DNA from: Verrucomicrobiota bacterium
GTDB lineage: Bacteria; Verrucomicrobiota; Verrucomicrobiia; Limisphaerales; UBA9464
Assembly (NCBI GenBank): GCA_947454705.1
Contig: CANGKZ010000003.1
Location: forward strand, 186,001-250,000
Reading direction: 5' to 3'
DNA length: 64,000 nt
The position numbers and the translations under genes were made by a program. The notes below the pieces were generated by a model. It was not told the origin of the DNA and ran no database searches. It was given only the letters and a program-made list of their open reading frames with translations. Positions 28,681 through 29,611 of the stretch are shown piece after piece; position 1 is the first letter of the stretch; each line of letters opens with the position of its first letter.

Positions 28681-28935
28681 GTTGAAGGGGAGAAAGCGAG
28701 GGGTTGAAACGTTGAAGAGTTGAAGGGGAGAACGGGTTGCTCACAGGTATGGAGTACCGCGTTTACGCGGCTCTGCTGTTGGATGGCGAAACAAGCGATG
28801 GGGTGGATTTTCAATCTCAGACCACTTCACATCCACCTCCCCGAACCGTCTGAAGACGGGACTCCAAACGAATGAGAAACCCCTCGAGGCAGCGTCGGAT
28901 TCCCCTTCAACCCTTCAACGTTTTAACCCTTCAAC
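28681..28935. repeat. composite REP-like repeat unit 1 (between recG and rnpB)
   Basis: The unit is bounded by GTTGAA-type heptamer runs: forward near 28681-28728 (GTTGAAACGTTGAAGAGTTG) and in the opposite sense at 28902-28935 (CTTCAACCCTTCAACG). Inside are two small palindromic modules in opposite orientation. Module A, 28742-28770 on the minus strand, reads CCGCG-TAAA-CGCGG-TACTCC. Module B, 28846-28874 on the plus strand, reads CCGTC-TGAA-GACGG-GACTCC. Both are followed by A(T/A)AC. A third copy lies in the unit on the other side of rnpB. The arrangement is that of REP/BIME-type extragenic palindromes. No protein gene is seen in 28624-28969. Confidence 0.75.
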
Positions 28936-28969
28936 TGCCGCAGCGCGGCTTCGGTCGCTGAAACGAAAT

Positions 28970-29383
28970 GGTCTTGGAAGAGCTGTAAGCCGAGTTCTGT
29001 TCGTCCCTTGCGGAACGCGGCGATCATTTGTCTCAGCAACCGATACCCGGGATCCGCCAGCTTTCGCCGGCACGGACGGGCCGTCCCAGATCCCCTATTT
29101 GGTCTTGCTCCCGATGAGGTTTTCCGTGCCCCGCAATTCGCATTGCGGGCGGTGGGCTCTTACCCCGCCTTTTCACCCTTACCCGCGACCTTGCGGCCGC
29201 GGGCGGTTTGTTTTCTGTGGCACTGTCTGTCGCAGCGGATTTTCACCCGCCACGCCTGCGGGCATGCCGGCGTACCCGGGCTCGCGCCCGGTGCTTCCGG
29301 TTTCCTCAGCATCGTGCCCTGTGGAGCTCGGACTTTCCTCCCGAAGCTTGCGCCCCGAGCGATCACCCGCTCTTCCAAGACCG
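28970..29383 (-). ncRNA. rnpB: RNase P RNA, bacterial class A
   Basis: Read on the minus strand, GGUCUUGGAAGAGC at the 5' end pairs exactly with GCUCUUCCAAGACC at the 3' end as helix P1. Universally conserved blocks follow in order: GGAGGAAAGUCCGAGCUCC (CR-I), ACAGUGCCACAGAAAAC (CR-II), CGGGAGCAAGACCAAAUAGG (CR-IV) and, near the 3' end, AGACAAAUGAUCGCC with ACAGAACUCGGCUUAC (CR-V). Length is about 414 nt. It is the catalytic RNA that matures the 5' ends of tRNAs. It lies between two REP-like units; the ends are set by P1 and could shift by a few bases. Confidence 0.96.
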
Positions 29384-29439
29384 CGCGTACCCTAGACCCC
29401 GGAATCAAAATGGGAAGCGGGAAGCCGGATGGGTTGGGG

Positions 29440-29611
29440 GACGGGTTGAAACGTTGAAGAGTTGAAGGGTTGAAGAGGAAGGGGCTGATAACTTCGCCTC
29501 GGAGGGTTGAATGCGACGCCCAACAGCTGAGCCGCGTAAACGCGGTACTCCATACGTGTGAACAAAGCGCTGTTCTCCTCTTCAACCCTTCAACTTTTTT
29601 AACCCTCCAAC
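29440..29611. repeat. composite REP-like repeat unit 2 (between rnpB and ggt)
   Basis: Same make-up as unit 1: forward GTTGAA heptamers at 29440-29475, a palindromic module C at 29532-29560 (CCGCG-TAAA-CGCGG-TACTCC), and CTTCAACCC runs at 29578-29611. Module C and its flanks (29519 to about 29598) are the reverse complement of 28711-28782 in unit 1 with only scattered differences, giving a long imperfect inverted repeat around rnpB. The unit stops about 57 bases before the ggt start codon. No gene is supported in 29384-29667. Confidence 0.75.

Follow-up and report, generated by a model that had tools for sequence, protein, structure and literature searches.

The window, a stretch of 64,000 nt from a Verrucomicrobiota bacterium, carries rnpB, the gene for class A RNase P RNA, with a repeat unit on either side (Table 1). 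The original prediction had described three hairpin modules of one plan here, two in opposite orientation in unit 1 and one in unit 2, and direct reading of the sequence finds all three in place. On the strand that runs from CCG to ACTCC, the left module of unit 1 and the module of unit 2 both read CCGCGTAAACGCGGTACTCCATAC (hairpin B), and the right module of unit 1, which lies on the opposite strand, reads CCGTCTGAAGACGGGACTCCAAAC (hairpin A). Hairpins A and B of unit 1 are mutually inverted, with their GGAG tags pointing outward and their starts 95 nt apart. Unit 2 has a single hairpin, its copy having no hairpin A, and sits between divergent genes, upstream of both. When unit 1 is folded as single-stranded DNA, the arrays at its two borders pair as an outer stem, and the structure reaches -55.9 kcal/mol (z = -6.5).

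Table 1. Features of the two repeat units and of the gene between them (positions in the window)
Feature	Position	Strand	Basis or remark
Unit 1	about 28681-28935		
Outlying single GTTGAAGGGG, left edge of unit 1	28681..28690	+	sequence, repeat list
Array bordering unit 1 on the left, GTTGAAAC GTTGAAGA GTTGAA, 3 octamers	28703..28724	+	
REP hairpin B of unit 1, GGAG-TA-CCGCG-TTTA-CGCGG	28751..28770	+	sequence, genome-wide B consensus
Spacer separating the inverted hairpins of unit 1	28771..28845		
REP hairpin A of unit 1, GGAG-TC-CCGTC-TTCA-GACGG	28846..28865	-	
Array bordering unit 1 on the right, four minus-strand octamers	28906..28935	-	35 nt 3' of rnpB
rnpB, RNase P RNA class A (context, outside the repeat)	28970..29378	-	Rfam RF00010, 208.4 bits
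Unit 2	about 29445-29611		
Array bordering unit 2 on the left, four octamers	29445..29474	+	
REP hairpin B of unit 2, GGAG-TA-CCGCG-TTTA-CGCGG	29532..29551	-	
Array bordering unit 2 on the right, four octamers (two degenerate)	29581..29611	-	

In regard to copy number, a lack of further copies in the genome had been named beforehand as the result that would refute a REP-like family. A strict search of the organism's own 5.45 Mb genome (an assembly of 80 contigs, 95.7% complete) with GGAGTNCCGNNTNNANNCGG returned 112 + 122 = 234 matches, against 0 + 0 in the same sequence read backwards, and the modules are therefore not a product of chance. Allowing up to four mismatches, we found 43 hairpins in an unbiased sample of 830 kb, made up of contigs C1, C2 and most of C3. 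A second set of 68 GGAG-tagged hairpins, drawn from this sample and from loci on further contigs with some overlap between the two, defines the grammar of the module as GGAG, two nucleotides, a perfect 5-bp stem and a TTYA loop. The two spacer nucleotides are TC or TA in 66 of these 68 hairpins and the loop is TTTA or TTCA in 64; the stem is CCGCG or CCGTC in all 68, in a search that had preset a perfect stem starting with CCG. CT stands directly after the stem in 41 sampled copies. Across all of the loci that we retrieved, the stems take the forms CCGCG/CGCGG, CCGTC/GACGG, CCGCC/GGCGG, CCGGC/GCCGG and CCGCA/TGCGG, so that a change in one arm goes with a complementary change in the opposite arm and pairing is kept. 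Within the organism's own genome the stems are near-invariant, and an internal alignment gives no covariation.

The arrangement seen in unit 1 is the rule for close pairs of hairpins A and B. Tags point outward in 17 of the 20 such pairs in the 830 kb sample, at 82-97 nt and with most starts 94-97 nt apart; the other three are neighbors with their tags inward, at 51, 137 and 144 nt. Among 36 aligned dimers, the hairpin columns are conserved at about 0.93-0.97 and the spacer of about 75 nt at about 0.7. Placement is far from random as well: gaps between convergent genes hold 25 of the 43 sampled hairpins, compared with 16% of random intergenic positions, and a single hairpin falls inside a predicted gene, although these numbers are approximate, as the genes were called with a simple home-made codon-usage finder.

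Comparison with relatives covered a few sites. The congeneric genome G001 keeps the order recG, rnpB and a gamma-glutamyltransferase-like gene (genes named by eye) with alignable flanks, but it lacks the whole of unit 2, a single block of about 186 nt that includes the arrays. Unit 1 is likewise absent from G001, but there the gap is filled by other sequence, and a second relative, G006, has neither unit beside rnpB. Copy numbers differ greatly, from 0 to 62 among congeners versus the 234 of the present genome.

These properties invite comparison with the repetitive extragenic palindromes (REPs) that are already known. The closest parallel in form is REPMb, a group-3 REP of subclass 2.5 from Marinomonas sp. 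MWYL1, whose perfect 5-bp stem and 4-nt loop lie 2 nt from the tag (PMC8266576). Its transposase needs T12, T13 and A15 and accepts any base at position 14, it cleaves at CT or CA, and the AG of the tag is modeled to select CT; SELEX with the CT substrate strongly enriched the last two tag bases only (PMC8266576). The present modules share with REPMb a tetranucleotide tag, two unpaired nucleotides, a perfect 5-bp stem and a T-T-N-A loop. They differ in their tag, a constant GGAG beside the palindrome where REPs have GTAG or GTGG and REPMb has GTAG, in their host, which belongs to another phylum, and in that no cognate transposase was found. REPs elsewhere lie between convergent or unidirectional genes, less than 20 bp from 3' ends and often as inverted dimers, and GTAG REPs are abundant in Opitutus terrae, of the Verrucomicrobia (PMC3733652). 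The present genome is like that of O. terrae in being REP-rich and in coming from the same broad group. With BIMEs and REPINs, and with the HH dimers of GTAG REPs (PMC3733652), the units have in common an inverted REP pair with the tags outside, many copies and placement in convergent or 3' intergenic gaps; unlike them, the present dimers have a long and constant start-to-start distance of 94-97 nt (mostly 38-40 nt in congeners) and are often framed by arrays.

The REP/BIME organization put forward at the outset is supported by high copy number, intergenic and 3'-end placement, the combination of tag, stem and loop, inverted dimers, and presence or absence between species. We consider it probable that the units are REP-type palindromes paired as BIMEs or REPINs, with dimers often framed by a second dispersed octamer repeat, and we extend this judgment to the explanation as a whole, including Y1 processing, an orphan or in-trans status and a role at 3' ends. 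The kind of element is known.

The borders deserve separate treatment. They had been described as GTTGAA/TTCAAC heptamers around the REP modules; the framing arrays are there, but their period is 8 rather than 7, with three or four units of GTTGAANN per side, and they turn out to form a dispersed repeat of their own, which is also seen around unrelated cargo or, in a congener, around nothing at all. The 830 kb sample contains 47 arrays, and its reversed sequence none. Exactly four octamers are found in 44 of the 47, with the consensus GTTGAAGG GTTGAAAA GTTGAAGC GTTGAAGGGG and with bases specific to each unit. These two features led us to reject ordinary variable tandem repeats as a description for this genome; variable octamer runs do occur in G016, which has many, and in G028. 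No more than 30 bp separate 24 of the 47 arrays from a preceding stop codon on the same strand, as against a mean of 2.7 and a maximum of 8 for random intergenic positions in 500 trials. Conserved 3' elements of particular genes are an unlikely description, since congeners, though they have REPs, are nearly free of arrays.

Singles outnumber inverted pairs among the arrays by 27 to 10. In about half, a GGAGT hairpin lies to the inside of the array, and others lead into CCCAGGCC palindromes, into other palindromes or into a gene for a four-helix-bundle protein of the 23S rRNA IVP family (TIGR02436, 89 bits), which is framed by inverted GTTGAA arrays between cysH and cysD (C2:171500-173200). Arrays are lacking at the genome's two other IVP copies, and with one of three framed we set aside IVP genes as regular array cargo. 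A further palindrome family that shares the GGAGT start, TTTTGGAGTGCGGTGGCAGAGCG...CACCGC, lies on the inner side of GTTGAA arrays at C2:101000-102200, C2:123753 and C2:118558. Other tandem arrays, of the 7-nt units GGAGATG, GATGCTG and GGACTTT, adjoin lone hairpins or GTTGAA arrays at six loci.

Our search of the literature for octamer arrays found no relevant description. The short tandemly repeated repetitive (STRR) heptamers known from cyanobacteria resemble them, in that a unit of 7-8 nt forms arrays scattered through intergenic regions; the present arrays differ in having 8 nt, nearly always four units, unit-specific bases and a preference for positions after stop codons. Tentatively, and with more doubt than confidence, we propose that the four-octamer GTTGAANN array, whether alone or paired in inverted orientation, represents an independent class of short insertable repeats, so far undescribed, which settle immediately downstream of stop codons and border whatever else the gap contains, be it several REP families, the four-helix-bundle gene of the 23S rRNA IVP family, or nothing.

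The framing also raises the possibility that the composite is one MITE-like element, with the GTTGAA arrays as terminal inverted repeats, the hairpins, other palindromes or gene as cargo, and an enzyme acting on the arrays as the mover. The variety of what inverted arrays enclose (the GGAGT dimer, CCCAGGCC palindromes, the gene between cysH and cysD) would fit, as would the array-to-array absence of unit 2 from G001. A pair of arrays of about 75 nt without hairpins also interrupts valS in G006 (C148:400-1800, at about 600-700 of the locus) and is absent from the present genome, though the reading frame shifts there and could reflect an assembly error. Yet many arrays are single, inverted arrays belong to part of the copies only, 7 of 24 REP clusters have no arrays, congeners carry REPs with almost no arrays, and neither a target duplication nor an enzyme was identified. 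We therefore regard a MITE-like composite as unlikely.

Alternatively, the units may be transcription terminators or stabilizers of mRNA 3' ends that are maintained by selection and are not mobile DNA. Their strong bias toward convergent gaps and the first 30 bp past stop codons, their very stable fold and the greater conservation of hairpins than of spacer are all consistent with this notion. The same placement has been published for REPs generally, however (PMC3733652), unit 2 lies upstream of both of its divergent neighbors, and both the excess of copies over congeners and the absence of unit 2 from an orthologous site are as spreading repeats would give. Selected terminators or stabilizers that never moved thus seem to us quite unlikely.

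The original prediction named RAYT transposases as the usual movers of REP/BIME elements and suggested a search for a RAYT gene adjoined by the same palindrome. None was found in this genome: the sole Y1 gene detected, on contig 26, is of IS200/IS605 type and stands beside a different palindrome. It is the only Y1 transposase found with PF01797, and relaxing the threshold to E<=10 added nothing but a 12.7-bit non-match; in a genome that is 95.7% complete, a RAYT may have been missed. By NCBIfam the protein scores 77.5 bits with the IS200/IS605 model (cut-off 55) and 24.4 bits with the RAYT model (cut-off 80). An inverted pair of CCCAGGCCTGAAGGCCTGGG palindromes adjoins this TnpA gene (locus 1408-2110), and no gene-linked copy of the GGAG palindrome occurs in the genome. 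The CCCAGGCCTGAAGGCCTGGGCTATT palindromes beside the gene have 39 genomic copies at up to two mismatches and form a REP-like family of their own. As the only Y1 transposase detected, this TnpA might mobilize the GGAGT hairpins in trans; its own palindrome also has TTCA as the loop of one strand, and it adjoins GTAGA (GGAGA in G001). We regard such mobilization as very unlikely, given that this palindrome has an 8-bp stem of different sequence, that the locus has no GGAGT hairpin and that an IS200-type enzyme acts specifically on the hairpins of its own element.

Beyond the genome itself, four genomes of the same genus or family supplied seven Y1 proteins, all of which fall below the RAYT cut-off. 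We examined 80 Y1 loci, taken from relatives and from motif-bearing genomes, and in 78 of them a hairpin of the GGAG type was absent from the stretch read. One of the 80 has a single hairpin copy about 500 nt from the Y1 gene (L288), and at one other, L100 in genome G037, related AGAG-tagged hairpins, of another family, lie on both sides of the gene. L100 was set aside as a candidate for the cognate RAYT: its gene has a CCAG-CCTGGGGC palindrome 33 nt from the start, as do the loci of its best-scoring relatives, and G037 has 293 AGAG-tagged hairpins, many of them in alternating tandem series 71 nt apart like BIME-2 (e.g., C52:10794-11540). The hairpins that flank the L100 gene are probably incidental, a weak link. 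An HMM built from the Y1 proteins of the order recovered 20 of 20 controls and had no match in the 96 motif-bearing GTDB stretches listed.

The family is apparently, then, a REP/BIME family without a transposase of its own, combined with a second dispersed repeat. Its copies would have spread in single-stranded form, cut by a Y1 transposase similar to group-3 TnpA-REP, presumably at CT dinucleotides that the tag selects through its AG. The transposase may since have been lost, may have been missed by the assembly or may act from elsewhere; as it was not found in the genome, the family has probably become an orphan or is mobilized in trans. Where they now stand, the units may serve chiefly to give structured 3' ends to transcripts of convergent genes. 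Four GTTGAANN octamers, when present on both sides, form the outer stem of the composite, and we suggest that the octamer array joined REP dimers in this lineage and spread as a separate repeat.

Our findings extend the experimentally defined grammar of REPMb to a new tag, GGAG, and describe in the octamer arrays a second dispersed repeat of very regular anatomy placed after stop codons. Together with the TGGAGTWCCGCGTTYACGCGG form in several phyla, they represent a REP family with many copies in genomes in which no transposase of its own was found, and this bears on the question of whether REPs can be mobilized in trans or survive as orphans. The TGGAGTWCCGCGTTYACGCGG motif occurs in at least 96 stretches, from genomes labeled Verrucomicrobia, Planctomycetota, Hydrogenedentota, Blastocatellia, Lentisphaeria and others.
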